DNA of 64,000 nt from an uncultured bacterium (lineage in GTDB: Bacteria > Bacillota > Clostridia > Lachnospirales > Lachnospiraceae): assembly GCA_947647735.1 (NCBI GenBank), contig CANSLJ010000013.1:1-64000 (forward strand), written 5' to 3'. Positions within the stretch are counted from its first letter, which is position 1; every line of letters starts with the position of its first letter. Below the pieces are notes generated by a model. It did not search any database. It saw nothing but the letters and a program-made list of their open reading frames with translations, and was not told the origin of the DNA. Made by a program: the position numbers and the translations under genes. Shown one piece after another: positions 17,948 to 58,010 of the stretch.

Positions 17948-18017
17948 AGAAAATCTGCAATTTCAGGAAGGTGTATTGCAGGAAAAGATAAGTAAAAAAT
18001 GCTATTTATAAAAAGGC

Positions 18018-18063
18018 AGGGACGCGAAATAAGAGATTTGTCTTGTTTTGCGTCCCTTTTTTG
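18018..18063 (+). terminator. Terminator after the secreted protein gene
   Basis: AGGGACGCGAAA pairs with TTTTGCGTCCCT around a 16-base loop, followed by TTTTTT. Confidence 0.9.
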
Positions 18064-18084
18064 TAAAAAGTTTATAAAATGTCT

Positions 18085-18112
18085 TTGAAAATCTTTTCAT
18101 GTGGTTTATAAT
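18085..18112 (+). promoter_or_regulatory. Sigma-A promoter of the mbl-flagellar block
   Basis: TTGAAA (18085-18090), a 16-base spacer, then TATAAT (18107-18112). The leader to the mbl start would be about 125 bases. Confidence 0.65.
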
Positions 18113-18242
18113 GGCTTTGTATGTTTAAGATTGTGCCAGTTTATGTTTAAATATGTGCTAAGTGGAAAAATTAGAAGTAGGGAATAACGCTTGACGGGTG
18201 CGATAAGGATAGAGAGAAACCATGGAAAGGGGCTAAGTTAGG

Positions 18243-19235
<993 letters not shown>

Positions 19236-40128: not shown

Positions 40129-41022
40129 GTGAATAAATTGACAAGAAAACAATTTGATGTGTTGGAGGTGCTGGCACTCAGCCAGGATGCTCTTACACAA
40201 CGTCAGTTGGAAGAAAAAACAGGACATTCCCTGGGGACGATCAATCGTGTTATGAAGGAAATAGCAGATATGGGTTATGCTGCTGATGGGCGGATCACAA
40301 ACGAAGGCCTTAATGCGCTTGAGCCATATCGTGCAAAACGGGCAATTTTTATTGCGGCAGGGTTTGGTTCTAGGCTTGTGCCGATTACTTTTAATACTCC
40401 TAAACCCCTTGTTCGTGTGCATGGAAAGCGGATTATTGACGGTTTGCTGGATGCCTGTCTGGAAGCGGGGATTACGGAAATCTATATTGTCCGTGGATAT
40501 CTTGCGGAGCAGTTCGATCAGCTTCTCTATAAGTATCCGATGATTCGGTTTCTGGAGAATCCGGTATATAACGAGTCAAATAATATATCTTCTTCCATGT
40601 GTGCCCGCTATATGTTGAGTAATGCGTATGTTTTTGAGGCGGATCTTTTGATCGCAAATCCGAAGATTATTAAGAAGTATCATTATACCTCGGATTTTTT
40701 GGGTATCAAAAAAGATCGAACGGATGACTGGTGTTTCGAAGTGAAGGACGGTATTATTACGGAAGAAAAGATTGGAGGTCTTAACTGTTGGCAGATGGTT
40801 GGTATTTCATACTGGAATGAGGAGGATGGCCATAAACTTTCCAATGACATTAAGGAAATATATGAGCAGCCAGGAGGCAGAGAGCGCTATTGGGAACAGG
40901 TGCCTCTCGTGTTTTGTAAAGATCGTTATAAGGTTGAGGTGCTGGAATGCTATGAAGAAGATATCGTGGAGATCGATACTTTTAGAGAGCTTAAAGCAAT
41001 AGATAAAATATATAATGTCTAA
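40129..41022 (+). CDS. HTH domain fused to a LicC/PntC-like CTP:phospho(no)-alcohol cytidylyltransferase
   Basis: 297 residues, GTG start after GAGAGGAGAAAGG. Residues 1-68 are a MarR-like winged helix (LTRKQFDVLEVLALSQDALT; QLEEKTGHSLGTINRVMKEI). Residues 70-297 are a nucleotidyltransferase: the P-loop AAGFGSRLVPITFNTPKPLV, then GITEIYIVRGYLAEQFDQL and NNISSSMCARY, as in LicC (CTP:phosphocholine) and PntC (CTP:2-aminoethylphosphonate). The acidic metal site is FEADLLI. Fusion to an HTH suggests the enzyme also regulates its operon. With an AEP-type transporter behind it, the substrate is probably imported AEP or choline phosphate. No PEP mutase or choline kinase is in the window. Confidence 0.8.
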   Translation: MNKLTRKQFDVLEVLALSQDALTQRQLEEKTGHSLGTINRVMKEIADMGYAADGRITNEGLNALEPYRAKRAIFIAAGFGSRLVPITFNTPKPLVRVHGKRIIDGLLDACLEAGITEIYIVRGYLAEQFDQLLYKYPMIRFLENPVYNESNNISSSMCARYMLSNAYVFEADLLIANPKIIKKYHYTSDFLGIKKDRTDDWCFEVKDGIITEEKIGGLNCWQMVGISYWNEEDGHKLSNDIKEIYEQPGGRERYWEQVPLVFCKDRYKVEVLECYEEDIVEIDTFRELKAIDKIYNV

Positions 41023-41040
41023 ATGAAGGAGGAAAAAAGA

Positions 41041-42027
41041 ATGAATAAAAAATATGCGATTACAGTATGTGCAGGGATAATGGCGTTTGGGCTTCTGACA
41101 GGTTGTGGCAGCAAAAATAAAGAAAGTACAGATATTGTCATTTGGACCAGCGGAGAAGACTATAGAAATGAGTATTATCTTGCGGAATGTCAGGAAAAAT
41201 TTCCAGATTATAATATCTCTTTGGAATACATGAACAGCAGCAGTATTGCGGCAAAGGTTATGGAAGAGGGAGATAATTGTTCTGCAGATATTATTCTCTC
41301 GGAAGAGTATGGTTATCTATATAAGTGTGAGGACTATCTTGTTGAACTTACAGATTTCGATTTTTCAGTTTTTTTGGATGAGATGGTTCCGGAAAGTCAC
41401 AAGTTTACTCCAGAATTGAAAAATGGAGGCTGCATTATTATCAATAAGAGCGTGCTGGAAAGCAAGGGGGCGCCGATTCCAACTTGCTATGAGGATTTGT
41501 TAGATCCTGTTTATAAAGATCTGATCTCGATGCCGAATCCTGCCTCGTCTGGTACAGGGTATATGTTTCTGCGTCAGCTTACCAATGAGTGGGGAGAGGA
41601 CGAGGCGTTTGCATATTTTGATCAGCTGTCCGAAAATGTTCTTCAGTATACCTCATCCGGTTCGGGACCGGTGAATGCGCTTATTCAGGGAGAAGTCGGG
41701 ATCGGCTTGGGTATGACTTCGCAGGCGGTTGTGGAGATCAACCAGGGCGTAGATTTGGATATTGTGTTTTTTGAGGAGGGTGCACCCTACAGTGTGTATG
41801 GAAATGCGGTGCTTGCAAACAGTGCGGATCGCGAATGTGTGATGGAGGTATTCAACTATTTATCAACAGATCTTTGCAAAGGTAATAATGAGAAATTTTT
41901 CCCAGAGCAGATATTTAAGGATTTTATTCCTGAGGCAAAAGGTTTTCCAACGGGCGTTCAGTATGGTGATATGTCAAATGATACTGTCAGTGAGAAAGAG
42001 AGGCTGCTTGGAAAATGGATACATTAA
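41041..42027 (+). CDS. ABC transporter substrate-binding lipoprotein (2-aminoethylphosphonate/Fe-type)
   Basis: 328 residues from ATG 41041 (GAAGGAGG about 8 bases upstream). The lipoprotein signal is MNKKYAITVCAGIMAFGLLT then GCG. The mature part follows the type 1 extracellular binding fold: DIVIWTSGEDYRNEYYLAEC, ADIILSEEYGYLYKCEDYLV, ISMPNPASSGTGYMFLRQLT and LIQGEVGIGLGMTSQAVVEI. This matches the group that includes AEP- and ferric-iron-binding proteins. The stop overlaps the ATPase gene by 13 bases. Confidence 0.85.
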   Translation: MNKKYAITVCAGIMAFGLLTGCGSKNKESTDIVIWTSGEDYRNEYYLAECQEKFPDYNISLEYMNSSSIAAKVMEEGDNCSADIILSEEYGYLYKCEDYLVELTDFDFSVFLDEMVPESHKFTPELKNGGCIIINKSVLESKGAPIPTCYEDLLDPVYKDLISMPNPASSGTGYMFLRQLTNEWGEDEAFAYFDQLSENVLQYTSSGSGPVNALIQGEVGIGLGMTSQAVVEINQGVDLDIVFFEEGAPYSVYGNAVLANSADRECVMEVFNYLSTDLCKGNNEKFFPEQIFKDFIPEAKGFPTGVQYGDMSNDTVSEKERLLGKWIH

Positions 42028-42794
42028 ATAAGCTGGATATCATCGGAGTGTCAAAGGGATATCAGAAGAATGATGTACTCAAAGAAATCAGCTTTGAAGT
42101 AAAAAACGGGGAATTTCTTTCTATTCTCGGACCGTCTGGTTGCGGGAAGACAACCCTTCTGAGAATTTTGATTGGACTTTTGGAATTGGATACGGGACGT
42201 ATTTTGAAAGATGGGGTTGATATTACTCATACATCTGCAGACCAGAGAGGAATGGGTATAGTTTTTCAGAATTATGCTTTGTTTGAAAATATGACTGTCT
42301 TTAAAAATGTGGAATATGCACTAAAATTTCACAAAGAAACGAAGGGCAATGCAAAAGCGATAGCAGAGGAGATGATAGAGATAGTCGGGTTGAAAGACCA
42401 TATGCAAAAAAAGCCTGGTGACCTTTCCGGAGGGCAGCAACAGAGGGTAGCCATTGCGAGAACGCTGGCGTTAAAGCCGGATATCATATTGTTGGATGAG
42501 CCGATGTCTGCGCTGGATGTTGCAACACGGCTGACAATGCGAGATGAATTGAAAAAATTGCAGGTATCTTTTGGGACGACGATGATCTATGTAACACATG
42601 ATCAGGAGGAAGCGTTTGCGCTTTCTGACAGAGTGATGATTATGGATCAGGGAGAGATAAGCCAGCTTGCAACACCAGAAGAAATCTGTTCTCATCCTGC
42701 GAATGATTATGTTCAGACATTTGTGTTAGATAATTTACAGGAAAAGGTTGATTCGTTGGCAAAGTTTGTTTATAGAAAGAACAGAGAGTCATGA
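42015..42794 (+). CDS. ABC transporter ATP-binding protein
   Basis: 259 residues. Walker A is GPSGCGKTT (about 38-46), Q-loop VFQNYALFENMTV, signature LSGGQQQRVAIARTLALKPD, Walker B IILLDEPMSALD and H-loop VTHDQEEAFALSDR. This is the importer subgroup used for AEP, polyamines and iron. It overlaps the binding protein (13 bases) and the permease (ATGA). Confidence 0.93.
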   Translation: MDTLNKLDIIGVSKGYQKNDVLKEISFEVKNGEFLSILGPSGCGKTTLLRILIGLLELDTGRILKDGVDITHTSADQRGMGIVFQNYALFENMTVFKNVEYALKFHKETKGNAKAIAEEMIEIVGLKDHMQKKPGDLSGGQQQRVAIARTLALKPDIILLDEPMSALDVATRLTMRDELKKLQVSFGTTMIYVTHDQEEAFALSDRVMIMDQGEISQLATPEEICSHPANDYVQTFVLDNLQEKVDSLAKFVYRKNRES

Positions 42795-44371
42795 GAAGAA
42801 AAAATAAGACTAGGATTATTGTTCATGTATTGATTACAGTGTTTTTTGCTGTCAGTGTGATAGCTCCCATCTTATCCATGTTGCGGCGGATTACGCCGGA
42901 TGGATTCAGGGCGGTGATTTACTCTGCCCAGTTTGGGGAAGCTGTTGTGAATTCGTTGACAACGGCATTGACGGCGACCATTATATCATTGATACTGGCA
43001 CTGCTTGCCGCCTTCTGCATAGAGCGTACTTCCCTGAAAGGTAAAGTTATTTTTAATATGTTTTTTGTAATTCCTATGCTAATTCCGTCTATTTCCCATG
43101 CATTTGGGCTTGTGGCGTTGTTTGGAGCAAACGGGCTGCTTACCCGATTTCTGGGGATAGATGGTGGCATATATGGCTTTTGGGGAATTGTTGCCGGTTC
43201 AGTGATGTACTCTTTTCCGGTGGCATTTCTTATGTTTAAGAGTATTCTTCAATATGAGGACGGTATGGCCTATAGGGCGGCGGGAATTCTTGGAATTCCA
43301 GCATTTTGGCAGTTCACTGGCATTACGTTTCCTTATCTGAAAAAAACAATGATTTCCGCTTTTTTTGCTATTTTTACAATGATCATTACAGACTATGGTG
43401 TTCCGCTCATGATTGGCGGCAAGATAATAACATTGTCAACATTGATGTATAGTAAAGCGGTGGCAATGCTGGATTATGATGCTGGAAGTGTGATTGGAGC
43501 ATTTTTGCTTATTCCGGCGGTCATTGCATTTCTGGTAGATATGATGAATTCGGAGAGTGCACACAGCGGATTTGTCAACGAGCAGGTTGAGGAGAAAAAG
43601 GGGGAGGGAGTCCGGCTGTTGGCTGCTGTTTTGTGCATTTTGCTTTCAGCCTGCATTTTGCTGCCTATACTGTCTTTTTGTATTATGGTTTTTGAGACAA
43701 AATATCCCGTGGACATGACATTCACGCTTCACCATATTGAAAAGACGATGAACCGAGGGGCGGGAAAATATCTCCTGAACTCTGTGATGTATTCTGCTCT
43801 GGCAGCATGCATGGGTACCGGGCTGGCGTTTTTATGTGCTTATCTGACTGCAAGAATAAATGGAGTGTTCAGTAGAGGGCTTCACCTGATCTCTGTGACA
43901 TCCATGGCGATACCAGGTATCGTGCTTGGTCTATCTTATGTGATTTTTTTTAGCAAAATGCCGATTTACGGTACAATTCTGATTATCGTTCTCGCCAATT
44001 CTATTCATTTTTTCGCATCACCGTATTTGATGATGTACAATACATTGGGAAAGGTGAACATGAATTTGGAGGCGGTAGGAAAAACACTGGGAATAAAAAA
44101 GGTACACATTGTTGTAGATGTGATTGTTCCAAAGGTAAAATATACATTGTATGAGATGTTCGCATATTTTTTCGTAAATTCAATGATGACGATTTCGGCG
44201 GTATCTTTTTTGGCACCTCCTTCACCAAAGCCGATAGCATTGATGATCAATCAATTTGAGGCGCAGCTGCTGATGGAAAGCGCGGCGTTTGTATCGCTGC
44301 TGATCTTGCTTATTAATTTTATATTGAAAGGCTTTATAGCTGTAATTAAGTTTAGGGCAATGAAAAAATAG
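42791..44371 (+). CDS. ABC transporter permease with two fused membrane domains
   Basis: 526 residues with about twelve membrane segments and two BPD-type permease domains in one chain. The coupling helices are in the region GMAYRAAGILGIPAFWQFTG (first half) and MNLEAVGKTLGIKKVHIVVD (second half), each with the EAA-loop glycine. The single-chain, double-domain arrangement is typical of iron and AEP importers. It pairs with the ATPase and the lipoprotein before it. Confidence 0.92.
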   Translation: MRRKNKTRIIVHVLITVFFAVSVIAPILSMLRRITPDGFRAVIYSAQFGEAVVNSLTTALTATIISLILALLAAFCIERTSLKGKVIFNMFFVIPMLIPSISHAFGLVALFGANGLLTRFLGIDGGIYGFWGIVAGSVMYSFPVAFLMFKSILQYEDGMAYRAAGILGIPAFWQFTGITFPYLKKTMISAFFAIFTMIITDYGVPLMIGGKIITLSTLMYSKAVAMLDYDAGSVIGAFLLIPAVIAFLVDMMNSESAHSGFVNEQVEEKKGEGVRLLAAVLCILLSACILLPILSFCIMVFETKYPVDMTFTLHHIEKTMNRGAGKYLLNSVMYSALAACMGTGLAFLCAYLTARINGVFSRGLHLISVTSMAIPGIVLGLSYVIFFSKMPIYGTILIIVLANSIHFFASPYLMMYNTLGKVNMNLEAVGKTLGIKKVHIVVDVIVPKVKYTLYEMFAYFFVNSMMTISAVSFLAPPSPKPIALMINQFEAQLLMESAAFVSLLILLINFILKGFIAVIKFRAMKK

Positions 44372-44436
44372 TTGCGGTTTTTCTGTAATGATTATAGAAT
44401 ATATGTGGCAAAGTCAGAACAAAAGAGGTGTCAATA

Positions 44437-45681
44437 ATGAATATATTACTATATATCGATCCAGGAACCGGAAGTATGCTCTTTGCGATACTGATTGGAA
44501 TTATCGGGACATTAAACTATCTGTTGAAGAATGGACTTGTAAAATTGCGCTTTATATTGAGCAGCGGGAAAAAGGTGGAGACCAATACGGATAAACTGCC
44601 GTTTGTGATTTTTTCAGATGATAAAAGGTATTGGAATATATTTGAACCGATCTGTAGAGAGCTTGATAAAAGAGGGGTGGATGTGGTCTATATGACAGCA
44701 TCTCCGGATGATCCGGCTATTCAAAATGCTTATGAACATATAAAGGGAGAATTTATAGGGAAAGGTAACAAAGCTTTTGCTAGAATGAATTTTTTGAATG
44801 CCGGGATTGTGTTTTCTACAACACCGGGGCTTGATGTGTATCAGTGGAAACGTTCTAAGGATGTTCAATATTATATACACATACAGCATGGAGCAAATGA
44901 TATTACTGGTTATCATATGTTTGGGGTAGATTATTATGATGCGATAATGCTGTCAGGAGAATATCAGGTACAGGAAGTAAGGGAACTTGAAAAACTTCGG
45001 GGGCTTCCGGAGAAGGATTTGGTGAAGGTAGGAATTCCCTATATGGACGAGATGGCAAATAGATTACAGATGACGCCAAAGAAAGATACAGAGGGGCGTA
45101 CAGTACTGCTTGCACCATCTTGGGGCAAGAGCTCGATTTTTCAAAAATACGGGGGTAGGATTATAGAGGTACTTTTAAAAACAGGGTACCATATTATTGT
45201 TCGCCCGCATCCCCAATCATTTGTTTCTGAAAAAGAGACAATGGAAAAGATTATGCAAGAGTACCCGGCATCGGACCAGCTTGAATGGAATCAGGATAAT
45301 GATAATTTTGAGGTGTTAAAACGGACTGATATTTTAGTATCGGATTTTTCTGGAATCATTTTTGACTTTTCTCTTGTATATGACAAACCTGTCATATATG
45401 CTGATACAGACTTTGATACTAGTCCTTATGATGCTTGGTGGTTAGATATGCCGTATTGGACATTGACAGCATTGCCACGAGTAGGCCAGAAACTGACGAT
45501 GGATAATCTGGACAGGCTGAAAGAAATGATAGATGAATGTATTCAAAACCCCAAATATGCACAAGGACGTCGAGAAGTAAGGGAGGAGACTTGGGAACAT
45601 AAAGGAGAGGGCGCAAAGCGGGCTGTAGATTACCTGTTGAATAAATATAAAGAATTGACCGAGACGGAGGAGGTAAAATAG
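44437..45681 (+). CDS. CDP-glycerol:glycerophosphotransferase-like (TagF/TagB family) enzyme
   Basis: 414 residues. ATG 44437 is preferred over GTG 44428 because AAAGAGG lies 9 bases before it. The N-terminus has the YIDPGTGSML motif and one membrane segment (AILIGIIGTLNYLL). The catalytic part has the motif IHIQHGANDITGYHMFGVDY (the His-Gly of TagF), VLLAPSWGKSSIFQKYG, HIIVRPHPQSF, and LVSDFSGIIFDFSLVYDKPV ending in IYAD. These enzymes move an alcohol phosphate from a CDP-alcohol onto a glycan or polymer. Next to a CMP-activating enzyme and AEP importer it is a good candidate for the transferase of that group. Confidence 0.82.
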   Translation: MNILLYIDPGTGSMLFAILIGIIGTLNYLLKNGLVKLRFILSSGKKVETNTDKLPFVIFSDDKRYWNIFEPICRELDKRGVDVVYMTASPDDPAIQNAYEHIKGEFIGKGNKAFARMNFLNAGIVFSTTPGLDVYQWKRSKDVQYYIHIQHGANDITGYHMFGVDYYDAIMLSGEYQVQEVRELEKLRGLPEKDLVKVGIPYMDEMANRLQMTPKKDTEGRTVLLAPSWGKSSIFQKYGGRIIEVLLKTGYHIIVRPHPQSFVSEKETMEKIMQEYPASDQLEWNQDNDNFEVLKRTDILVSDFSGIIFDFSLVYDKPVIYADTDFDTSPYDAWWLDMPYWTLTALPRVGQKLTMDNLDRLKEMIDECIQNPKYAQGRREVREETWEHKGEGAKRAVDYLLNKYKELTETEEVK

Positions 45682-45682: not shown

Positions 45683-48445
45683 ATGTCTTTTGGAGAGATT
45701 TTAGATGCGTTATTACTGAAACCGTTGCAGTTGATATTTGAAGTGGTTTATGTCATGGCAGACAATGTGATCGACAATCCGGGGCTATCGATTATTGTGT
45801 TGAGTCTGTTCATGAACTTTTTGGTTCTTCCGTTATATATGCGTGCAGATGCGATACAGGAAGAAGAGCATGCGATAGAGAAGAAACTTCAAAAAGGCGT
45901 GGATCATATAAAAAGGACGTTCAGCGGCGATGAGCGGATGATGATATTGCAGACTTATTACAGGCAGAATCATTATAAACCTGTATATGTTCTGCGTAGT
46001 GCAGTTTCGTTATTTTTGCAGATTCCGTTTTTTATTGCTGCCTATCGTTTTCTTTCCGGCTTGCAGCTTTTAAACGGGGTATCTTTCGGGCCGATTGCGA
46101 ATCTTGGCAGTCCAGATGGGATGTTGGTATTTAGTGGAATTTCTATCAATTTATTGCCAGTTATTATGACGGCGGTAAATTTGGTGTCCTGCGTAGTATT
46201 TACGAAAGGTAGTCCATTGAAGTCAAAAATACAATTGTATGCCATGGCGCTCTTTTTTTTGGTGTTTTTGTATAGTTCTCCGTCAGGACTTGTTTTTTAT
46301 TGGACGTTAAACAATGTATTTTCCCTTATAAAAACTATTTTTTATAAATTAAAAAATCCAAGAAAAGTACTAAATGCGATTTCTTCTGGCGTAGGAGTGT
46401 TGGTAGCAATTTATGGATTTTTCTTTTATCAAACACCTACTCTAAGAAAAATGGTGTTTTTTGCATGTGCTGGAATATTATTACAGTTTCCAATTGTATA
46501 TGAAGTGGTGAGGAGAAAAATAAAATGGAAAAGGAGGCAGGGGGGAGAAAATAAGAAATTGTTTTTGGCTGGGGCATTGTTTCTGGCTGTTTTAACAGGG
46601 GCGGTAATTCCTTCTGCGGTAATTAAGGCATCACCGCAGGAATTTATAGATGTTACACTTTTTTATAATCCCTTATGGTTTATTGTACATTCTTTTTGCC
46701 GGGCAATAGGAACATTTGTAATTTGGACAGGGGTATTTTATTTTTTGGCAAGACCTTCTGTGAGAGTATATTTTGACAAAGGTGTATGGCTCATCTCCGG
46801 AGTGTTTGCGGCGGATTATATGTTTTTTGGAAAGGAATTGGGGCTTCTTACAAACCAATTAAAATATGAGGATAAACTGGAATTTGCATTAAAAGAACAG
46901 CTAAAGAATGTTGTGGTAGTTATAGCAGTATTGATACTGTTTTATCTGATTTATCAATATTGGAACAAATTGGCATCGGAAATACTGGTGATAGGGGTAT
47001 TAGCTCTTTCTTGTATGACGATTCTTAACATAACAAATATTAATACTTCTGTGAACAGAGTGAAAGAGAGGGATCTGGAAAAATATATGACGACCCCTCA
47101 ATTTACCTTAAGTAAAAGTGGGAAAAATGTAATAGTATTAATGCTGGATCGAGCAATAGGCGAATATATTCCTTATCTATTTCAGGAAAAACCGGAGTTG
47201 GAAGCACAATTTTCAGGTTTTACTTACTATGCGAATGCAGTATCTTTTGGGCTATATACTAATTTGGGGACGGCACCGCTTTTTGGCGGTTATGAATATA
47301 CTCCGGTCGAAATGAATAAAAGAGATGAAGAATTATTGGTCGATAAACAGAATGAGGCATTGAAAGTCATGCCGGTATTATTTGATCAGAATGATTATCA
47401 AGTGATGGTCTGTGATCCGCCATATGCAGGATACCAGTGGATTCCGGATTTATCAATTTATGATGAATATCCGGGGATTGAGAGTTACATATTAAAAAAT
47501 AAATTTACAGATGATTCAATCAAAGGGCAATGGATGCAGGAAGATAAGAGAAATTTTTTCTGTTATGGTATTTTAAAGGCTGCACCACTTTGTTTTCAGA
47601 AGACAATATATGATTACGGAAGGTATAATCAGGCAAATAATGATGTCGAGACGATAGATACAAAACAGGTGAGGCCGGATATGTACACTTCGGTTGGAGT
47701 GAGTAATACTTTTATGGATAGGTATAACGCTTTATGCGCTCTACCGGATATGACGGACGCTGTAGATGAGAATGTTAATACATTTTTAATGATGGTAAAT
47801 GAGACGACTCATGAACCGATGCTGTTGCAGGAACCAGACTATGTACCGGCAATGGAAGTGGATAATACAGAGTATGAAAGAGACCATCAGGACAGGTATA
47901 CTATAAATGGTCATACATTGAGAATGACAACAGATGTGCATGCTATTTATTACCAGTCAACCATGGCAACAATGCTTAAGTTGGGCGATTGGTTTGACTA
48001 TATGCGGGAAAATGGTATTTATGATAATACAAGAATTATTCTGGTATCGGATCATGGTAGGAGCAGTTTGTATGAAGGGGATGAAGCGAGACTAGGGGAG
48101 ACAGATATATCATCATTTTATCCTTTGTTGATGGTGAAAGATTTTGATAGTAAAGAATTTGTGACATCAGAAGAATTTATGACAAATGGAGATGTGCCGA
48201 CACTTGCGATGAAAGACATCATAGAAGACCCAGTTAATCCGTTTACCGGGAAAGCGATAAATTCTGATGAGAAAACGGCGCATAAACAGTATGTCAGTTC
48301 TTCATGGGAATGGGATATAGAAATTAATAATGGGACAACTTATCTCCCTTCTAAATGGTACTCGGTGCACGATGATATGCGTGAAGTGGATAATTGGGAA
48401 TTGATATCTGAGGAAGAGGTGATACTTCCTCCCATGGAAGAGTAA
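45683..48445 (+). CDS. YidC/Oxa1-type membrane domain fused to an LtaS/alkaline-phosphatase-superfamily domain (copy 1)
   Basis: 920 residues. Residues 20-225 are a YidC/Oxa1-like five-helix domain: GLSIIVLSLFMNFLVLPLYM, the coiled-coil loop EEEHAIEKKLQKGVDHIKRT, SAVSLFLQIPFFIAAYRFLS, and SSPSGLVFYWTLNNVFSLIK. The groove arginine expected before LxLPL is Asn45. Six further membrane segments fill about 235-445. Residues 480-900 form a sulfatase/phosphotransferase domain: metal Asp489 in VLMLDR, a likely nucleophile Thr in GLYTNLGTAPLFGG (T526 or T530), VNETTHEP with His710, and LVSDHG with D790-H791. It probably transfers or hydrolyses a phospho-group on an exported polymer. It starts one base after the preceding stop and has a paralogue at 49429. 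Confidence 0.85.
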   Translation: MSFGEILDALLLKPLQLIFEVVYVMADNVIDNPGLSIIVLSLFMNFLVLPLYMRADAIQEEEHAIEKKLQKGVDHIKRTFSGDERMMILQTYYRQNHYKPVYVLRSAVSLFLQIPFFIAAYRFLSGLQLLNGVSFGPIANLGSPDGMLVFSGISINLLPVIMTAVNLVSCVVFTKGSPLKSKIQLYAMALFFLVFLYSSPSGLVFYWTLNNVFSLIKTIFYKLKNPRKVLNAISSGVGVLVAIYGFFFYQTPTLRKMVFFACAGILLQFPIVYEVVRRKIKWKRRQGGENKKLFLAGALFLAVLTGAVIPSAVIKASPQEFIDVTLFYNPLWFIVHSFCRAIGTFVIWTGVFYFLARPSVRVYFDKGVWLISGVFAADYMFFGKELGLLTNQLKYEDKLEFALKEQLKNVVVVIAVLILFYLIYQYWNKLASEILVIGVLALSCMTILNITNINTSVNRVKERDLEKYMTTPQFTLSKSGKNVIVLMLDRAIGEYIPYLFQEKPELEAQFSGFTYYANAVSFGLYTNLGTAPLFGGYEYTPVEMNKRDEELLVDKQNEALKVMPVLFDQNDYQVMVCDPPYAGYQWIPDLSIYDEYPGIESYILKNKFTDDSIKGQWMQEDKRNFFCYGILKAAPLCFQKTIYDYGRYNQANNDVETIDTKQVRPDMYTSVGVSNTFMDRYNALCALPDMTDAVDENVNTFLMMVNETTHEPMLLQEPDYVPAMEVDNTEYERDHQDRYTINGHTLRMTTDVHAIYYQSTMATMLKLGDWFDYMRENGIYDNTRIILVSDHGRSSLYEGDEARLGETDISSFYPLLMVKDFDSKEFVTSEEFMTNGDVPTLAMKDIIEDPVNPFTGKAINSDEKTAHKQYVSSSWEWDIEINNGTTYLPSKWYSVHDDMREVDNWELISEEEVILPPMEE

Positions 48446-48536
48446 TATAATAATTATAGTTACAAAATTCTATAATAGACTATGATATGATGGGGCATGG
48501 TATTGTGCGGTAAGAAAGGAATAGGAGAAAAATAGA

Positions 48537-49403
48537 ATGAAGAAAATTATGATAACTGGTTGCAATGGACAATTAGGTAGGGCATTGAATCAATTGTACG
48601 AAAAAGAATCTAATATTACGATCATTAATACAGATGTATTTCAGGGAGAGGGTATTAAGTCGCTGGATATTACAGATGTAAACGCAGTGGTTTCTTTCGT
48701 TAGAGAAATTAAGCCAGATGCTATTATTAATTGTGCAGCACATACCAATGTAGATAAATGTGAGACAGATATAGATAATGCCTATAAAATTAATGCTATA
48801 GGTCCGCGAAATTTGAGTATAGCGGCAACGGAAACAGGGGCAAGGTTGATGCATGTTTCTACGGATTATGTTTTCCAAGGGACAGAAGATAGAGCATTGA
48901 CGGAGTTTGATGCGGTAGGGCCGACCAGCATGTACGGAAAGACAAAGTTGGCGGGAGAAAATTTTGTGCGTGATTTCGGAGATAAGTATTTTATTGTAAG
49001 AACGGCATGGCTTTACGGGGATGGTAAGAACTTTGTGAAGACGATGCTAAGGTTGGCGGAGACGCATATGGAAGTAGGTGTTGTAAAGGATCAATATGGA
49101 ACGCCCACTAGTGCGCTGGAACTGGCTAAGGCGATCAAGTATTTGCTGCCAACAGAAAATTATGGGCTGTTTCATGGAACCTGTGAGGGGAGCTGCAGCT
49201 GGGCTGACTTTGCATCAGAAATTTTTTGGCTGGCAGGAAAAAATACAAAAGTAAATTACATTACGACAGAGGAATTTGGTTCGTTAACGAGGCGCCCTGC
49301 CTATTCTATATTGGATAATTATATGCTTAGGCTGACTACAGACTTTGCTTTTGCGCCTTGGCAGGATGCGATTGCAGAGTATATGAAAACAGTAAGTGTC
49401 TGA
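48537..49403 (+). CDS. rmlD: dTDP-4-dehydrorhamnose reductase-like SDR enzyme
   Basis: 288 residues. The Rossmann motif is ITGCNGQLGRAL and the catalytic pair YxxxK lies in SMYGKTKLAGE (Tyr and Lys) with the Ser/Thr before it in VSTDYVFQG. Substrate-loop features include GVVKDQYGTPTSALELA. RmlD makes dTDP-L-rhamnose, but RmlA, RmlB and RmlC are not in the window. Length is normal. It lies between the two YidC-phosphotransferase genes and is probably in one transcript with them. Confidence 0.85.
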   Translation: MKKIMITGCNGQLGRALNQLYEKESNITIINTDVFQGEGIKSLDITDVNAVVSFVREIKPDAIINCAAHTNVDKCETDIDNAYKINAIGPRNLSIAATETGARLMHVSTDYVFQGTEDRALTEFDAVGPTSMYGKTKLAGENFVRDFGDKYFIVRTAWLYGDGKNFVKTMLRLAETHMEVGVVKDQYGTPTSALELAKAIKYLLPTENYGLFHGTCEGSCSWADFASEIFWLAGKNTKVNYITTEEFGSLTRRPAYSILDNYMLRLTTDFAFAPWQDAIAEYMKTVSV

Positions 49404-49428
49404 ACTGAAGTAAAAACGGAGAAAAGGA

Positions 49429-52173
49429 ATGTCTTTTTTTGAGATATTAGATGCATTATTACTAAAACCGCTATATTTGCTGTTTGAAATAGTCTATGTG
49501 GTGGCAAACAGAGTAGTGGGTAATGCGGGATTATCAATCATTATATTGAGTCTGTTTATGAATTTTCTGGTACTTCCGCTCTATATGCGAGCAGATGCAG
49601 TACAGGAAGAAGAGCATGCTGTGGAAAAAAAACTCCAAAAAGGAGTGGATCATATTAAAAAGACATTCAGTGGTGATGAGCGAATGATGCTGCTGCAGAC
49701 GTATTACAGGCAGAATAACTATAAGCCGGCATATGTCTTGCGCGGTGCAGTTTCGCTGTTTTTGCAGATACCATTTTTTATTGCTGCATATCGGTTCCTT
49801 TCTGGCTTGCAGATGTTAAATGGTGTTGCATTTGGACCGATCACGGATCTCGGAAAACAGGATGGAATGTTAGTTGTTGGCGAAATATCCATCAATGTAT
49901 TGCCGATTATCATGACTGTTGTGAATATTGTGTCCTGCGTGATTTTTACAAAGGGAAGTCCTCTGAAATCGAAAGTACAGTTGTATGTGATGGCATTATT
50001 CTTTCTAGTGTTTTTATACACCTCTCCGGCAGGCCTTGTCTTTTATTGGACATTGAATAATATGTTTTCGTTGGTGAAGACGATCTTCTATAAATTGAAG
50101 AATCCAAGGAAAGTATTGGGAGGGATTTTTTCAGCAACGGGGCTTCTGTTGATAATTTATGGTTTCTTTTTTTGCCATGCAGTCACGGCGAAGAGGATGG
50201 TATTCTTTGCGGTGATGGGGTTATTGATGCAGATACCGTTGGTTTATTATGTATTTAGCGGACATATAAAATGGCGAGTGAGGTCTGAGAACTCAAATGC
50301 TAGGATGTTCTGGGGGAGCGGAGTTTTTTTGACCGTTTTGTTGGGAGCTGTGATACCATCTACTGTTATAAAATCATCTCCATTAGAGTTTGTAGATATT
50401 ACTTATTTTTATCATCCACTGTGGTTTGTTGTCAGTTCTTTTTGCATGGCGTTAGGAATATTTGTAATTTGGGCAGGCATCTTTTATTTTTTTGCAAAAC
50501 CTACGATAAGAGAATACTTTGATATAGCAATGTGGGTATTTTCTGGCATTGCAATAGTGAATTATATGTTCTTTGGTAAGGATCTGGGGATATTAAGTCC
50601 TCAGTTAAAATATGAGAAGGACTTAAATTTGATAGGGACAGATCAGATCTGGAATATGATTGTAGTAATAATCGTTATGGTGGTGCTTTATATTGTTTAT
50701 AAGAGATGGGAAAAATTGTCTACAGAGGTGATGCTTACCGGTGTGCTGGCATTATGTTGTATGGCGTCGGTTAATATTATTGGAATCAATACTTCTGTAA
50801 AAAGTATTAAAGAACAGGTAACAGAAGAAATTCCAAGACTTACATTGAGCAAAACAGGTAAAAATGTGATCGTGTTTATGCTCGACAGGGCCATGGGAGA
50901 ATATGTTCCTTATTTCATTCAAGAAAAACCAGAATTAAAGGAGATGTTCTCAGGATTTACATATTATCCCAATACGATATCTTTTGGGTCTAATACTAAT
51001 ATAGCAACACCAGCTCTTTTTGGGGGATATGAATATACTCCGGTGGAGATAGATAAAAGAAGCGAAGAATCTTTGGAATCTAAGCAGAATGAAGCGTTAA
51101 GGGTAATGCCAGTGCTGTTTGATCAAAATGGATATAAAGTAGTTGTTTGCGATCCGCCGTATGCAGGCTACCAGTGGATACCGGATTTGACTATTTATGA
51201 TGAATATCCTGATATAGAAAGTTATATAACAAACGGGAAGTTTACAGAACTGTCTGCAAGGAAATCGAAAATAGAAAATAACAATAGAAATTTTATCTGT
51301 TACAGTATGTTTAAGACAGCGCCTCTCTGCGTGCAAGAAATTATATATGACAGGGGACAGTATAATCAGACGAGCACAGTAGAGGAAGTGGATTATTCAG
51401 GACAGATGATACCTGATCTGTTCAGTGCGACCGGATTAGATGCAGAATTTATGCAGGCATATAATGTATTGGAAAATCTTCCATATATTACGGAGATAGT
51501 GGGAGATAATAAAAATAATTTTCTAATGCTTGAAAATGATACAACACATAAAATCATGATGCTTCAGGAGCCAGAGTATGTTCCCCAAATGATAGTTAAT
51601 AATGTGGAGTATGAGAATTGTTCCAGGGATAGATTTGTCCTTGATGGCCGTGAGCTGAAAATGGACGATTATTTGCAGGTGACTCATTATCAGATAAATA
51701 TGGCATCTCTATTGCGCTTAGGAGAGTGGTTTGACTATATGCGGGCGAATGATGTTTATGATAATACAAGAATTATTCTGGTAGCTGATCATGGTTATAG
51801 TTTGGAACATTGGGAAGATTTCTATTTGGAAGATGGTGAGGACATATCAGCTTATTACCCGTTGCTTATGGTAAAAGACTTTGACTGTAAAGAATTTGAA
51901 ATATCCGAAGAGTTTATGACAAATGGAGATGTGCCGACACTCGCAATAAAGGATATTATAGAAGAACCGATTAATCCCTTCACAGGGAGAAAGATAGATG
52001 CTAGTGAAAAAACGGCACATAAGCAATATGTTTTTTCTTCAGATGAGTGGATGATAGATATTAATAACGGAAATACGTTTATTCCAGGAGATTGGTTTGC
52101 TGTGCATAATGATATGCGAGATCCAAATAACTGGAAATTGGTGACGGAAGATGCAATACTTCCAGCATATTAG
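49429..52173 (+). CDS. YidC/Oxa1-type membrane domain fused to an LtaS/alkaline-phosphatase-superfamily domain (copy 2)
   Basis: 914 residues, aligning end to end with the protein at 45683. The YidC-like part is very similar (GLSIIILSLFMNFLVLPLYM, SAVSLFLQ read here as GAVSLFLQ, and TSPAGLVFYWTLNNMFSLVK). It has the same Asn in the arginine position. The phosphotransferase part keeps VFMLDRAMGEYVP, the NTNIATPALFGG nucleophile loop, NDTTHKIM and LVADHG. Differences concentrate in the middle membrane segments (about 240-460), and the loop after ADHG is rearranged. Two copies around rmlD suggest a duplicated cassette with divided substrate roles. Confidence 0.85.
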   Translation: MSFFEILDALLLKPLYLLFEIVYVVANRVVGNAGLSIIILSLFMNFLVLPLYMRADAVQEEEHAVEKKLQKGVDHIKKTFSGDERMMLLQTYYRQNNYKPAYVLRGAVSLFLQIPFFIAAYRFLSGLQMLNGVAFGPITDLGKQDGMLVVGEISINVLPIIMTVVNIVSCVIFTKGSPLKSKVQLYVMALFFLVFLYTSPAGLVFYWTLNNMFSLVKTIFYKLKNPRKVLGGIFSATGLLLIIYGFFFCHAVTAKRMVFFAVMGLLMQIPLVYYVFSGHIKWRVRSENSNARMFWGSGVFLTVLLGAVIPSTVIKSSPLEFVDITYFYHPLWFVVSSFCMALGIFVIWAGIFYFFAKPTIREYFDIAMWVFSGIAIVNYMFFGKDLGILSPQLKYEKDLNLIGTDQIWNMIVVIIVMVVLYIVYKRWEKLSTEVMLTGVLALCCMASVNIIGINTSVKSIKEQVTEEIPRLTLSKTGKNVIVFMLDRAMGEYVPYFIQEKPELKEMFSGFTYYPNTISFGSNTNIATPALFGGYEYTPVEIDKRSEESLESKQNEALRVMPVLFDQNGYKVVVCDPPYAGYQWIPDLTIYDEYPDIESYITNGKFTELSARKSKIENNNRNFICYSMFKTAPLCVQEIIYDRGQYNQTSTVEEVDYSGQMIPDLFSATGLDAEFMQAYNVLENLPYITEIVGDNKNNFLMLENDTTHKIMMLQEPEYVPQMIVNNVEYENCSRDRFVLDGRELKMDDYLQVTHYQINMASLLRLGEWFDYMRANDVYDNTRIILVADHGYSLEHWEDFYLEDGEDISAYYPLLMVKDFDCKEFEISEEFMTNGDVPTLAIKDIIEEPINPFTGRKIDASEKTAHKQYVFSSDEWMIDINNGNTFIPGDWFAVHNDMRDPNNWKLVTEDAILPAY

Positions 52174-52250
52174 GGGTGATTTATAAATTATAGAAAAGTT
52201 ATACCATATATGATGGAACATAGAGTGTGAAGACAGAAATGGAGAGTCGC

Positions 52251-55200
52251 ATGAACGTAAGTTACAGTAAAATAAAACCCTTATTTTTGCAACAAAGCTA
52301 TATCGATGCTTGGGAAGACTACAGGAGAGCACTCCGAAAGCGTTCTTTTCCTTGCTGGGATGTGATTGTACTGACGGCGTCCAACGAAGATCAGGCAGCG
52401 GCCTATCGGAAGGAAATTGAATACAGGCTGCAAAACAGTCTTTTGCCGGGAAAAACGAAATATGTGGTGCTTTCCGATCCAGATGGAAAACGGGTGGGTT
52501 CCGGAGGAGCTACACTAAATGTATTAAAATATCTGGCGGAGGCAGAGGGCGGCAGAGATGCGTTTCGTAAGAAAATACTGGTAATCCATTCCGGTGGGGA
52601 TTCGAAGAGAGTGCCCCAATACAGTGTCTGTGGAAAGTTGTTTTCACCGGTGCCGAGGGAGTTGCCTAATGGCAGGGCGTCCACTCTGTTTGATGAGTTT
52701 ATGGTTGCAACAGCAGGGATTCCGGCAAGGATGCAGAGTGGTATGTTGGTGATGTCCGGTGATGTGTTGTTGTTATTTAATGTGCTTCAGATTGACTTGC
52801 AGTATCAGGGGGCGGCGGCGATTTCCATTAAGGAACCTGTTTCAATCGGGAAAGAGCATGGCGTGTTTTTGAATGATGGACGGGGCATGGTAAAGCGATT
52901 TCTGCATAAACAGTCGGAAGAGCAGCTACAGGCTCTGGGAGCTGTGAATGAACAGGGTATGGTAGATTTGGATACCGGTGCAGTAATGTTGGACACAGAA
53001 TTGCTTCTCGCCTTGTTTTCTCTGATTGCTGTGAAAGATAAAGTGGAGGATAAAAAGTTCGAGACGTTTGTCAATGAACGGGCAAGAATCAGCTTTTATG
53101 GCGACTTTTTATATCCGCTGGCGAAGGACGCCACATTGGAAGAATATTATCTGGAAGCGCCGGAGGGCAGCTTTTGTGAGGAGTTAGAGAGCTGCAGGAG
53201 AAAAATCTGGGAAGTGCTTCATACATTTCAGATGAAGGTGATCTGTCTCTCTCCGGCGGAGTTTATTCATTTTGGAACGACCAGAGAATTGTTGAAACTG
53301 GTGACCAGAGAGGTGGAGAATTATGAATTCCTAAATTGGAAAAAACAAGTTTGTACAAACAGGATAGAACAAAGGCATTATGCCGCACATAATAGTTTGA
53401 TTTCTAAAAAGGCTGATATCGGGGAAGGGTGCTATATAGAGGATTGTGATATTGGAAGTCAGGTCTGTGTGGGGGAGGACAGTGTTTTATCGGGGCTTTG
53501 TCTGGAAAAAGGACAGATTCCTTCTGAGGTGGTGTTGCATGCTCTGAGGTTAAAGGATGGCAGATATACAGTCAGAATTTATGGCATAGAGGATAATCCG
53601 AAGGGAACGCTTGAGCAGAATACGACGTTTATATACGGAAGACTTAGGGATATGCTTTCCTATTATGGAATTTTGCCAGAACAGATCTGGGGTGGGCAGG
53701 AGCCCTATCTTTGGTTTGCAAAGCTTTATCCTGTTTGTGACAGCATGGAGGAAGCGGTGCAGGCTTCCTTGCAACTTGTAAAGATATCAGAACAGAAGGA
53801 GCCTTCTCCAGCGGTGGCAAATTGGCTCTCCATGGAACGGATCAGCCTTTATGAATCTTTTGTGCAGGCGGACGTGAGAGCGATTTTGCCCTGGAAGACC
53901 AGATTGGAGGATTTAGTGCTGGCTGCCCGCTTTATAGAAAAACTGGAGCAGGGAGTTTCTTATGATGAGGCTTTGCAGGTATTTGGACAGGTGGGGATTG
54001 ACCAGGAAAAGTTTGACTTGTTGATGGAGAAGGCTGGCGGAAGTGAGCTTCTGCTAAAAATGAGGATATATTATGCAATTTCCCGTTATATGCGAGAGGG
54101 AAATATTGTTTTTGCGGGAGATACCAGCTATGATGTATTGGAGCGGCTTTGTTTTGACTGCCTTGGGAAAGCTGTTTATGACAACAGCAGAAAGTATATT
54201 CAGGACAATAAAAATTATCGGCTTCAGAAAGAGCATGTGGCAGTACAACTTCCGGTCAGGGTGAACTGGGGAGGCGGCTGGACGGATACACCACCATATT
54301 GTAATGAAAATGGCGGCGTGGTACTGAATGCCGCCCTGAAATTAAATGGGATTTTGCCGATTCAAGTGGAAGTGCGGAGACTGGAAACATTACAGGTGGA
54401 ATTTGCCAGTGAGGATATCGGCGTAAAAGGTGTCTGCAAGACGGTGGAGGAGATAAGAGATTGCCATAATCCGTTCGATTTTTTTGCGCTTCATAAGGCG
54501 GCACTGATTTCCTGTGGCATTGTGCCTTTAGCAGGGACAGAAACTTTGCAGGAAATCCTGCGAAGGCTGGGCGGCGGTATCTATTTATCCACGAAGGTGG
54601 TGGGAGTTCCCAAGGGTTCCGGATTAGGGACGAGCAGTATTCTATCTGGAGCTTGTGTGAAAGCTCTGCATGAATTTTTAGGGCTTTCTTGCAGCGATGG
54701 AGCACTTTATGATATCGTGCTCTGTATGGAGCAAATGATGAGTACAGGCGGTGGCTGGCAGGATCAGGTAGGCGGCCTGACAAATGGCATTAAATATATT
54801 ACTACAAAATCCGGTATCGATCAGAAGATTCAAGTGGAGCAGGTTGTTGTGCCGGAAAAAGCAAAAAAGGAATTGCAGGAGCGGTTCGTGCTAATCTATA
54901 CTGGACAGAGAAGACTTGCGAGAAACTTGTTGCGAGAAGTGGTAGGTAATTATATCGGTGGACGAAAAGAGTCAGTGGATGCTCTTTCGGCCATGAAGGT
55001 GACAGCAGTTAGAATGCGCTGGGCATTGGAAGAGGGAAATATAGACGAACTGGCAAGGCTCTTTAATGAGCATTGGGCGCTGTCCAAACAATTGGATATG
55101 GGGGCTACCAACACCTGTATTGACCAGATATTCTTATCCTGTGAGGACTTGATTGATGGACGGTTTATCGCAGGAGCTGGCGGCGGCGGCTTTTTACAGG

Positions 55201-55301
55201 CCATATTAAAAAAGGGTGTGACAAAACGGCAGCTCTCAGATCGGCTTCATGAGGTATTTCAGGATAATGGGGTGGATGTCTGGGAGAGTGAGTTTGTGTA
55301 A
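52251..55301 (+). CDS. fkp: Bifunctional fucokinase / L-fucose-1-phosphate guanylyltransferase (Fkp type)
   Basis: 1016 residues from ATG 52251, preceded by GGAGAG. The N-terminal pyrophosphorylase half has LSDPDGKRVGSGGATLNVLK (about 66-85), DSKRVPQYSVCGKLFSPVPR and MLVMSGDVLLLF. The C-terminal GHMP kinase half has the ATP loop VPKGSGLGTSSILSGACVKA (about 785-804), VNWGGGWTDTPPYCNENGGV, and AGAGGGGFLQAI. In Bacteroides Fkp makes GDP-fucose from exogenous L-fucose for surface glycans. Here the same reaction would feed the surface locus. No fucosyltransferase is recognised in the window. A related heptose-type substrate is possible. Confidence 0.85.
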   Translation: MNVSYSKIKPLFLQQSYIDAWEDYRRALRKRSFPCWDVIVLTASNEDQAAAYRKEIEYRLQNSLLPGKTKYVVLSDPDGKRVGSGGATLNVLKYLAEAEGGRDAFRKKILVIHSGGDSKRVPQYSVCGKLFSPVPRELPNGRASTLFDEFMVATAGIPARMQSGMLVMSGDVLLLFNVLQIDLQYQGAAAISIKEPVSIGKEHGVFLNDGRGMVKRFLHKQSEEQLQALGAVNEQGMVDLDTGAVMLDTELLLALFSLIAVKDKVEDKKFETFVNERARISFYGDFLYPLAKDATLEEYYLEAPEGSFCEELESCRRKIWEVLHTFQMKVICLSPAEFIHFGTTRELLKLVTREVENYEFLNWKKQVCTNRIEQRHYAAHNSLISKKADIGEGCYIEDCDIGSQVCVGEDSVLSGLCLEKGQIPSEVVLHALRLKDGRYTVRIYGIEDNPKGTLEQNTTFIYGRLRDMLSYYGILPEQIWGGQEPYLWFAKLYPVCDSMEEAVQASLQLVKISEQKEPSPAVANWLSMERISLYESFVQADVRAILPWKTRLEDLVLAARFIEKLEQGVSYDEALQVFGQVGIDQEKFDLLMEKAGGSELLLKMRIYYAISRYMREGNIVFAGDTSYDVLERLCFDCLGKAVYDNSRKYIQDNKNYRLQKEHVAVQLPVRVNWGGGWTDTPPYCNENGGVVLNAALKLNGILPIQVEVRRLETLQVEFASEDIGVKGVCKTVEEIRDCHNPFDFFALHKAALISCGIVPLAGTETLQEILRRLGGGIYLSTKVVGVPKGSGLGTSSILSGACVKALHEFLGLSCSDGALYDIVLCMEQMMSTGGGWQDQVGGLTNGIKYITTKSGIDQKIQVEQVVVPEKAKKELQERFVLIYTGQRRLARNLLREVVGNYIGGRKESVDALSAMKVTAVRMRWALEEGNIDELARLFNEHWALSKQLDMGATNTCIDQIFLSCEDLIDGRFIAGAGGGGFLQAILKKGVTKRQLSDRLHEVFQDNGVDVWESEFV

Positions 55302-55307: not shown

Positions 55308-56945
55308 ATGGAAAAAGAGAAAACAGGCGTGGAAAGAATGAAGCAGATAATTTGTATGAATAAAGAGAAGAGGGGCGTGGCCGGAGCTGCGCTCTTTCTT
55401 GCGCTTGTGCCGGGAATTTGTGCTTTTTTGTACTGTTTTCTGAGAGGACAAAGCTTTTCACAGATCTATTTACCGGCTTCACCCTGGAATGATGAGCTGT
55501 TTTACTATAAGCTGACGGAAAATGTACTTGCCTGTGGTTATCCGCAGGGATATTTTGGGTTTAATGAGAGCCATGGTCTGTATCTTTCCTTTGCGGCGTG
55601 GAGTCCAGTGCTTTTATTGTTCTGGGTAATATGGGGGTTTTTCTTTGGGTGGAATTTGTTGTCTCCGATGGTCTGCAATTTAGTTCTGTTGTCAATAGCT
55701 ATGTTGTTTTTTGGCATTCTTGTAAAGCCGGATAAAAGACAGAGCGTACTGATCGGTGTTTTGTACGGGACATTTTTGCCGGTGACAAGATTTGCACTTT
55801 CCTGTATTCCGGAGGCAGAATTGTTTGCGCTGTTTATTTTATTCTTGGGATTAGCGATAAGCTGTCAGAGAGTATATAAGGACTGGATGGTCGGTGTGAT
55901 GTTTGGGCTTGTGATGCTGATGACATGGATGCGTCCATATTTAATCTTGCTGTTTTTGACGCCAGCGGTATTATTGTTTCGGCGGAAGGGAAGGAGATCG
56001 CTTATTCTGACAGGTGGGATATCGGCAGTTACGGTGGTTGTTTACATTGCAATCAATCACTTTTTTAGTGCACCTTACCTGACGGATCTTTTTTATACGG
56101 AGTGGATCACAGTATATTTTGAGCAGGGTGTTTTTGCGGGATTACGCTATACAATCTGGAAGTTATGCACTTCTTTAGCTTCTGTGGCAAAGATGATGTG
56201 GGAAAATCTGACAGTGAAGAATGGGCTGATTTCAGCGGCGGGATTATATTATTTCATTTTTCTGATTTTATTTGCTATTCTATTTGTGAAAATGATCTAT
56301 AGATTTTTGAGTAAAAAGTGGGAAGGCTTTTTATTGGAAGGGCAGATGATTCTTTGCATGGCTGGCTTTTTCGTGGCGGATCTTTTGATGTATCGGCTGC
56401 AGGAGGGGGGACGGCATACGCTGGTTTATATTGTCGGGTGCCTGTTTTTCCTGCCCCTTGTAAATGGAATGTTCGATGTATTCAAAATTTTTAAGGGAAA
56501 AAAAATGCCGATATTATTGTCGGGCGGGATGATAGTAATGTTTTTTGTTCTCTTTATATGTCGTGGAAATATTCCGTATGAGTTTGCAGTGCCTTTTGGA
56601 AGCGGAGAGTACAGAGAAGATCTGGCGAATATGGAAGAACAGCTCTTGGAAAATATGGAACTTTCAAAGGAGGCTCCAACATATGACAATACTGTCATAT
56701 GGGCTGCGTGGGACAGCGTAAACGGAGAAACAAGGACAGTAGATTTCGGGGCATATTATGCGGTGCCTAAGGGATTCGGGATTAATCTCTGTGATGGCGG
56801 CTATATGGATGTGAATTTGGAAAAACTGCAGAGCAGATATATTGGCGTTATCCCGGGCGGCGATTTTGAGAAGCGCTGTCAGGAGGCAGGGGGACAGATA
56901 GCTGGCAGCTGCAGCAGGCTTGTTATTTATGATATGCGTCCTTAA
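55308..56945 (+). CDS. GT-C-like membrane glycosyltransferase (copy A)
   Basis: 545 residues with about eleven membrane segments. The first extracellular loop SPWNDELFYYKLTENVLACG carries the acidic ND(E) motif typical of GT-C catalysts. It is followed by GYPQGYFGFNESHG and SFAAWSPVLLLFWVIWGFFF. The C-terminal 90 residues form a soluble domain (GSGEYREDLANMEEQLLENM and VIWAAWDSVNGETRTVDFGA). It is a paralogue of the gene at 58011. ATG 55338 is an alternative start with GGCGTGGAAAG before it. It probably takes a sugar from a polyprenyl-phosphate donor made by the GtrB-like enzyme between the two. Confidence 0.7.
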   Translation: MEKEKTGVERMKQIICMNKEKRGVAGAALFLALVPGICAFLYCFLRGQSFSQIYLPASPWNDELFYYKLTENVLACGYPQGYFGFNESHGLYLSFAAWSPVLLLFWVIWGFFFGWNLLSPMVCNLVLLSIAMLFFGILVKPDKRQSVLIGVLYGTFLPVTRFALSCIPEAELFALFILFLGLAISCQRVYKDWMVGVMFGLVMLMTWMRPYLILLFLTPAVLLFRRKGRRSLILTGGISAVTVVVYIAINHFFSAPYLTDLFYTEWITVYFEQGVFAGLRYTIWKLCTSLASVAKMMWENLTVKNGLISAAGLYYFIFLILFAILFVKMIYRFLSKKWEGFLLEGQMILCMAGFFVADLLMYRLQEGGRHTLVYIVGCLFFLPLVNGMFDVFKIFKGKKMPILLSGGMIVMFFVLFICRGNIPYEFAVPFGSGEYREDLANMEEQLLENMELSKEAPTYDNTVIWAAWDSVNGETRTVDFGAYYAVPKGFGINLCDGGYMDVNLEKLQSRYIGVIPGGDFEKRCQEAGGQIAGSCSRLVIYDMRP

Positions 56946-57007
56946 GTTTATGACAAAATAGATTACATGATTTTTGTTACGTTTATCCGGGTGTATGCTT
57001 CATACAC

Positions 57008-57036
57008 TTGCAAGAAATCGGGAAAAGCCTTATACT
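57008..57036 (+). promoter_or_regulatory. Sigma-A promoter for the GtrB-like gene
   Basis: TTGCAA (57008-57013), a 17-base spacer, then TATACT (57031-57036), in the 129-base gap before 57075. Confidence 0.7.
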
Positions 57037-57074
57037 GGAAAATAACCTGACGTCCATAATATTGGAGGAACCCC

Positions 57075-58004: not shown

Positions 58005-58010
58005 CAGTTT

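Follow-up and report, generated by a model that had tools for sequence, protein, structure and literature searches.

Several described systems share parts with the locus examined here. LtaS, LtaP and GacH combine membrane segments with an extracytoplasmic alkaline-phosphatase domain that has a Thr nucleophile and metal ligands, and the donor substrates of transferases in the alkaline-phosphatase superfamily, LtaS among them, are bound to lipids. PptA, EptA and MCR belong to the same superfamily and, to our knowledge, have not been described as fused to YidC. The polymerases TagF, TarL and Cps3D have a GT-B fold and form part of the CDP-glycerol phosphotransferase family. In the GtrA/GtrB/GT-C systems, a glycan is decorated by an inner-face donor synthase, a flippase and an outer-face transferase acting together.

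The window, that is, the whole 64,000-nucleotide stretch of Lachnospiraceae DNA that was analysed, carries two genes in which a YidC/Oxa1 domain is joined to an LtaS-like part. These fusions have the architecture of LtaS, LtaP and GacH; unlike in those systems, a YidC module and a TagF-like enzyme are fused to it or co-encoded with it, and CDP-alkanolamine genes are often adjacent. With PptA, EptA and MCR they share the superfamily and probably the type of group moved outside the cell. PMC10434233 reports no evidence that Lic-1 and PptA coexist in one species; here, LicC-type genes and a PptA/LtaS-like enzyme occur in shared loci. As in Lic-1 (LicA, LicB, LicC, LicD), choline kinase, EamA-type transporter and LicC-type genes adjoin the system, but the enzymes are a TagF-like protein and a YidC-LtaS pair, and the only LicD match in the genome of the window lies on another contig, not in the fusion operon. 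The TagF-like enzyme has the fold and family of TagF, TarL and Cps3D, and differs from them in its small, single-domain make-up, to which either a hydrophobic segment of its own or a YidC module is added. The three-component logic matches that of GtrA/GtrB/GT-C, although the families are unrelated, the group is a phosphate group rather than a sugar, and the putative flippase is fused to one enzyme or the other. Finally, the module belongs to the Pfam family of the YidC/SpoIIIJ insertases, from which it differs by being fused, by forming a separate clade and by its own invariant residues. A literature search, mostly outside subscription journals, found no title or abstract opening on YidC-LtaS or YidC-TagF fusions; the single parts are known, and the titles and abstract openings searched contained neither their combination nor the two interchangeable fusions. 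The S. pyogenes qim operon was dropped as a relative because a search of the text available for it found no YidC, sulfatase, TagF or LtaS.

The features of the locus in the window are as follows.

40129..41022, + strand: winged helix with a LicC/PntC-type cytidylyltransferase (LicC 1jyk, E 3.3e-25; PntC 6pd1, E 1.4e-9; residues E170 and E256)
41023..42027, + strand: substrate-binding protein of an ABC importer, PhnS2-like (161 bits, below the cut-off of 393)
42015..42794, + strand: ATPase of the ABC importer, PhnT2-like (314 bits, below the cut-off of 458)
42791..44371, + strand: permease of the ABC importer, PhnU2-like (323 bits, below the cut-off of 593)
44428..45681, + strand: TagF-like phosphotransferase with one N-terminal hydrophobic segment and the motif YIDPGTGSML
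45683..48445, + strand: fusion A, 920 aa, YidC domain plus LtaS-like membrane and catalytic part
45683..46366, + strand: YidC/Oxa1 domain of fusion A, residues 1-228 (Pfam PF02096 at 34-221, E 2.7e-21)
46553..47092, + strand: LtaS-type transmembrane segments of fusion A, residues about 291-470 (hydrophobicity profile)
47117..48427, + strand: extracytoplasmic alkaline-phosphatase-superfamily domain of fusion A, residues about 479-915 (D489, T526, H710, D790, H791)
48537..49403, + strand: rmlD, dTDP-4-dehydrorhamnose reductase, between fusions A and B (TIGR01214 above cut-off)
49429..52173, + strand: fusion B, a paralogue of 914 aa with 63% identity to fusion A
52227..55301, + strand: fucokinase/fucose-1-phosphate guanylyltransferase-like protein, locus context
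55308..59657, + strand: PgfS-like glycosyltransferase between two related membrane proteins, locus context

The first-pass annotation had reported two paralogous fusions with continuous frames beside a cytidylyltransferase, a TagF-like enzyme and an importer of the 2-aminoethylphosphonate (AEP) type. Both fusions are intact genes at the sizes listed and the three neighbours are present, the importer being assigned from PhnS2, PhnT2 and PhnU2 scores well below their cut-offs, so that AEP is only its putative substrate. Fusion A starts one base after the end of the TagF-like gene. Downstream, the two membrane proteins flanking the PgfS-like glycosyltransferase (55308-59657) have no Pfam match, and this stretch could be a sugar decoration set of the three-component glycan type, with one donor synthase and two transferases. 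A CotH family protein (59697-61346) closes the locus. An Rfam scan of the window returned nothing at gathering scores.

Both domains that the first-pass annotation had recognized in the fusions were recovered. The Pfam family 60KD_IMP (PF02096) scored 76.7 and 82.2 bits in the two copies, above its cut-off of 35; TIGR03592 scored 79.3 and 82.9, below its cut-off of 84.3, so the fusions are not filed under that NCBIfam subfamily. The C-terminal domain has the alkaline phosphatase superfamily fold, and the match lists of a structure search with the predicted fusion model (Foldseek/VIA) were filled by this catalytic domain. Matches to PbgA/YejM begin at residue 289 of fusion A. Across 100 fusion ORFs, D489 and T526 were kept in all, and H710, D790 and H791 in 98, the other two having a gap; by motif, we take these residues to be the metal ligands and Thr nucleophile of LtaS/EptA-type enzymes, and the catalytic site looks active as judged from this conservation. 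The TagF-like protein scored above the cut-off of PF04464 and has the GT-B fold. An alignment of this family covered the window protein and 43 of 72 TagF-like ORFs.

In a family sample of 397 Lachnospiraceae genomes, the host family, the first fusion matched 19; the match in one of these (G097) was an ordinary YidC, which leaves fusions in 18 genomes, with several copies in some. At a strict cut, the cognate TagF-like protein was found in 17 of the 18 fusion genomes versus one of the other 379 (Fisher 1e-27, without correction for kinship), and in G004 the TagF-like gene and the fusion lie on different contigs. A phylum-wide sample of 398 genomes contained three matches, namely the genome of the window itself, a second genome of its family and one from a different family. 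When 84,980 species genomes were scanned, at least 442 relatives were obtained, from which at least 79 loci were kept. Judged by record titles, the loci listed come mostly from Clostridia, many of them from gut or rumen samples, together with one Solobacterium and the diderm Schwartzia succinivorans (in the latter, locus L054, the TagF-like gene lies several kilobases from the fusion on one contig). The YidC-LtaS fusion was found in 77 of the 79 loci listed, also as tandem arrays, and the TagF-like protein in 71. For the 62 TagF-fusion pairs spaced between -60 and 200 bases apart, the median spacing is 1 base. One TagF-like gene accompanies up to seven fusion ORFs; in L092, a single TagF-like gene is surrounded by seven ORFs of the YidC-LtaS family, of which two, at 817 and 579 aa, are short. 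The search for the domain pair and its neighbours suggested by the first-pass annotation thus yielded a fusion in 18 of 397 host-family genomes, usually with the TagF-like gene adjacent. That an ordinary insertase was joined to the transferase by accident would agree with the sequence family taken by itself, but the recurrence across the loci listed, the tandem arrays and the co-occurrence with the same partner make this hardly credible.

A PF02096 search in the 18 fusion genomes and four others revealed a second arrangement: G022 has a 660-codon frame with YidC and TagF-like parts. We refer to YidC-LtaS fusions as class 1 and to YidC-TagF fusions as class 2. Two class 2 proteins tested in Pfam scored above cut-off for both 60KD_IMP (107.6 and 120.5 bits) and Glyphos_transf (43.2 and 29.7 bits). 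Class 2 fusions occur in 20 of the 397 host-family genomes, a count that includes two (G216 and G251) split at contig ends. A class-wide sample of 291 genomes added three carriers, one of which belongs to a different family. Among 18 class 2 loci examined, from 17 of the 20 genomes, 11 have a standalone LtaS-like gene near the fusion and one more has a weak match. A profile of these 11 genes and one hybrid had S. aureus LtaS as its first PDB match (E 8e-11) and aligned in hhalign to residues 292-914 of fusion A with a probability of 99.8. The hybrid, L196, is the fusion of G052, in which a class 1 YidC is joined to a class 2 LtaS-like part. Class 1, class 2 and hybrid fusions together indicate that the YidC module is found on either the TagF-like or the LtaS-like enzyme. 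In known YidCs the C-terminus is cytoplasmic, which agrees with a TagF domain inside the cell for class 2 and, for class 1, with additional membrane segments that lead outward. One standalone LtaS-like protein (L181:5784-8051) begins with a YIDP-type hydrophobic segment like those at the N-termini of class 1 TagF-like proteins.

Attachment to either enzyme would also fit a YidC module that serves as a scaffold for dimerisation or as an inert anchor in the membrane and does no more than unite the two enzymes. The LtaS-like part already has membrane segments of its own, which argues against a need for an anchor, and the class 1 TagF-like protein has a short hydrophobic segment of its own, which can be read in favour of a scaffold. 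The YidC domain is moreover the best conserved part of the fusion, with a mean majority fraction of 0.75 versus 0.62 for the catalytic domain and 36 of 228 columns invariant among 73 class 1 sequences (the two window proteins and 71 of 92 full-length fusion ORFs). An anchor or scaffold role is therefore improbable in our judgement.

The groove of the YidC domain bears on whether it still acts as an insertase. In fusion A, the groove positions are N45, N166 and W207. At the position of the groove Arg, fusion ORFs have Asn in 94 of 100 cases, Ser in one and a gap in five, with N45 in both window copies, while class 2 YidCs have Lys in 18 of 18. Elsewhere in the phylum, YidCs from 30 genomes carry Lys (20), Arg (9) or Gln (1) there. 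For the host family, the housekeeping YidCs of 17 among 21 loci (L001 and L118-L137) were aligned; at this position they show Tyr (10), Asn (3), Lys (3) or Arg (1), so that 13 of 17 have Tyr or Asn, and all 17 have Trp opposite it. A positive groove residue is called strictly conserved across all homologues in PMC8920935. The first-pass annotation had noted that Asn replaces Arg in both copies, which holds, and had concluded that the domain is unlikely to be an ordinary insertase; this step fails, since a positive residue is likewise missing from 13 of the 17 aligned housekeeping YidCs in the host family. The Arg-to-Asn change was accordingly ruled out as proof of a non-insertase, and with Tyr and Asn common in housekeeping YidCs, a groove with Asn and Trp is no mark of a non-insertase in this lineage.

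Other positions do set class 1 apart. M162, N166 and N210 are invariant among the 73 class 1 sequences; in 35 class 2 and housekeeping YidCs, M162 occurs in none, and N166 and N210 once each. A careful tree was built from 12 class 1 and two hybrid or divergent fusions, 12 of 18 class 2 proteins, 12 of 17 housekeeping YidCs and 30 other YidCs. Class 2 grouped with the host-family housekeeping YidCs (support 98/85.8), and a clade of class 1 plus class 2 was not rejected by the AU test with this tree (p 0.39) or with an earlier quick tree (p 0.82). Two independent YidC recruitments, one per class, were therefore set aside as a conclusion, and a single origin is compatible with these tests.

The module could also be a dedicated insertase or chaperone, which folds the membrane part of its own protein or presents the transferase with acceptors in the form of membrane proteins or lipoproteins, much as PptA acts on pilin. 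It has kept clear YidC family membership, and three of 17 host-family housekeeping YidCs likewise have Asn at the position of residue 45. Against this, the class 2 module sits on the TagF-like enzyme rather than on the transferase, class 1 is distinguished by its invariant residues, and 17 of the 18 fusion genomes also have an ordinary YidC, one per genome (the exception, G052, is an 84% complete assembly). We give this explanation only a small chance.

The neighbouring genes concern the group that is transferred. LicC-type genes were found in 30 of 61 listed class 1 loci of at least 12 kb, in 14 of 18 class 2 loci and in none of 19 housekeeping yidC regions, a lenient control because class 1 neighbours were the source of the profiles and housekeeping rather than surface-glycan loci served as controls (18 of the 19 control regions have an rpmH-like motif); LicC genes might simply be common in surface-glycan loci. 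Near the remaining 31 long class 1 loci listed and four of the class 2 loci, no LicC-type gene was found. Class 1 surroundings also contain choline kinases, EamA-type transporters, a BCCT transporter, winged-helix-LicC-kinase fusions and LicC plus CobD-like fusions. Across loci, the YidC, TagF and LtaS parts are constant and the supply genes vary. Locus L034, for example, is syntenic with the window (TagF-like protein 84%, fusion 69% and rmlD 91% identical; the CotH gene is also kept) and has one fusion instead of two; in place of the LicC-like gene and the AEP-type ABC importer of the window, it carries a BCCT transporter, LicC and a LicC-choline kinase fusion.

Two kinds of composite supply protein were seen. 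A protein in L083 (16517-18292) and nine clustered relatives unite a winged helix, a LicC-type cytidylyltransferase and a choline/ethanolamine kinase, with the domains checked for L083 and L193. Elsewhere, a LicC-type domain fused to a CobD-like PLP enzyme adjoins the system (L107:6930-8732 and relatives; L178, L179 and L182), and its product may be CDP-ethanolamine or CDP-aminopropanol. A CDP-serine/CDP-ethanolamine route for these fusions was put aside, as the literature search found no supporting paper.

For the window itself, Glu170 of the cytidylyltransferase aligns with PntC Glu104, where LicC has Asp, and Glu256 presumably occupies the position of LicC Asp192. PMC6697681 ties such Glu residues to the primary amine of AEP. 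No choline kinase match was found in the genome of the window, an 86.6% complete assembly. LicD is found elsewhere in 13 of the 18 fusion genomes, including that of the window, where an AEP-type cluster with LicD and PEP mutase lies on contig C11 of G000 (L251, about 6600-19200); this cluster also holds genes that were named by eye as decarboxylase-like, class V transaminase-like and LicC-like. The two Glu residues, the lack of a choline kinase match and the separate cluster of PEP mutase and LicD make AEP or phosphoethanolamine the more probable group to be transferred in the window.

We consider it probable that these genes form one alkanolamine-decoration pathway. In the arrangement that we favour, and to which we give about an even chance, a surface glycan would be decorated in three parts: loading inside, transfer across the membrane by YidC and discharge outside. 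An importer or a kinase, depending on the locus, together with the LicC/PntC-type enzyme would supply a CMP- or CDP-activated alkanolamine. At the cytoplasmic face, the TagF-like enzyme would move the phospho- or phosphono-alkanolamine from this form onto a membrane lipid, and the YidC module would bring the loaded lipid to the outer leaflet. Outside, the LtaS-like part, with its Thr nucleophile and metal site, would pass the group to the glycan, and the freed lipid would go back. A single TagF-like enzyme could supply more than one fusion, and the acceptor may differ from fusion to fusion. Gene and domain composition, co-occurrence, the swapped fusion partners and the conserved catalytic residues are observed directly, whereas the reactions, the lipid carrier, the flipping and the acceptor are inferred.

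The chance that the YidC module carries and flips the lipid falls, in our estimate, a little short of even. Somewhat more tentatively still, we suggest that it is a dedicated flippase derived from the Oxa1/YidC fold, standing between a cytoplasmic TagF-like loader and an extracytoplasmic LtaS-like transferase, with the fusions marking its place. The idea in the first-pass annotation of a conduit serving the phosphotransferase is thereby retained as the best-supported reading, strengthened by the YidC-TagF fusions of the second locus class, though transport itself is only inferred. According to PMC10491306, YidC and other insertases scramble lipids in vitro. Four points count against the pathway: many loci lack supply genes nearby, among them about half of the long class 1 loci; a clear LtaS-like neighbour is missing from seven of the 18 class 2 loci (the locus with the weak match included); TagF relatives normally act on polymers; and 13 of the 18 fusion genomes also carry LicD, a known CDP-choline transferase.

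The next best reading after the three-part pathway assigns two decorations to one polymer. The TagF-like enzyme would add a phospho-alkanolamine inside, as LicD does, the LtaS-like part would add glycerol phosphate from phosphatidylglycerol outside, as GacH does, and YidC would merely assist assembly. This draws on rmlD and the other sugar genes in the locus, on the use of phosphatidylglycerol by LtaS, and on GacH, which modifies a rhamnose polysaccharide and for which abstracts mention glycerol phosphate. Unrelated decorations would not require that the TagF-like protein and the fusion be gained and lost together, nor that YidC be fused to either enzyme, and as the neighbours point to alkanolamines, glycerol phosphate is kept only as a rival; we give two decorations roughly one chance in four.

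The three-part pathway has consequences for known biology. PptA, of the same superfamily, is required for phosphocholine on pilin, and its donor route remains to be identified, according to PMC10434233; with CDP-alkanolamine genes and a PptA/LtaS-like enzyme in one locus, the present system bears on that donor. A YidC built into an apparently lipid-dependent decoration pathway also offers a natural test case for lipid scrambling by insertases in cells, and the pathway, if true, would give the insertase fold a physiological role in lipid transport. It would likewise be a third route to surface decoration of the phosphocholine type, besides LicD and PptA. Many carriers among the matches listed are gut or rumen bacteria, in which phosphocholine-type surface groups could affect recognition by the host.
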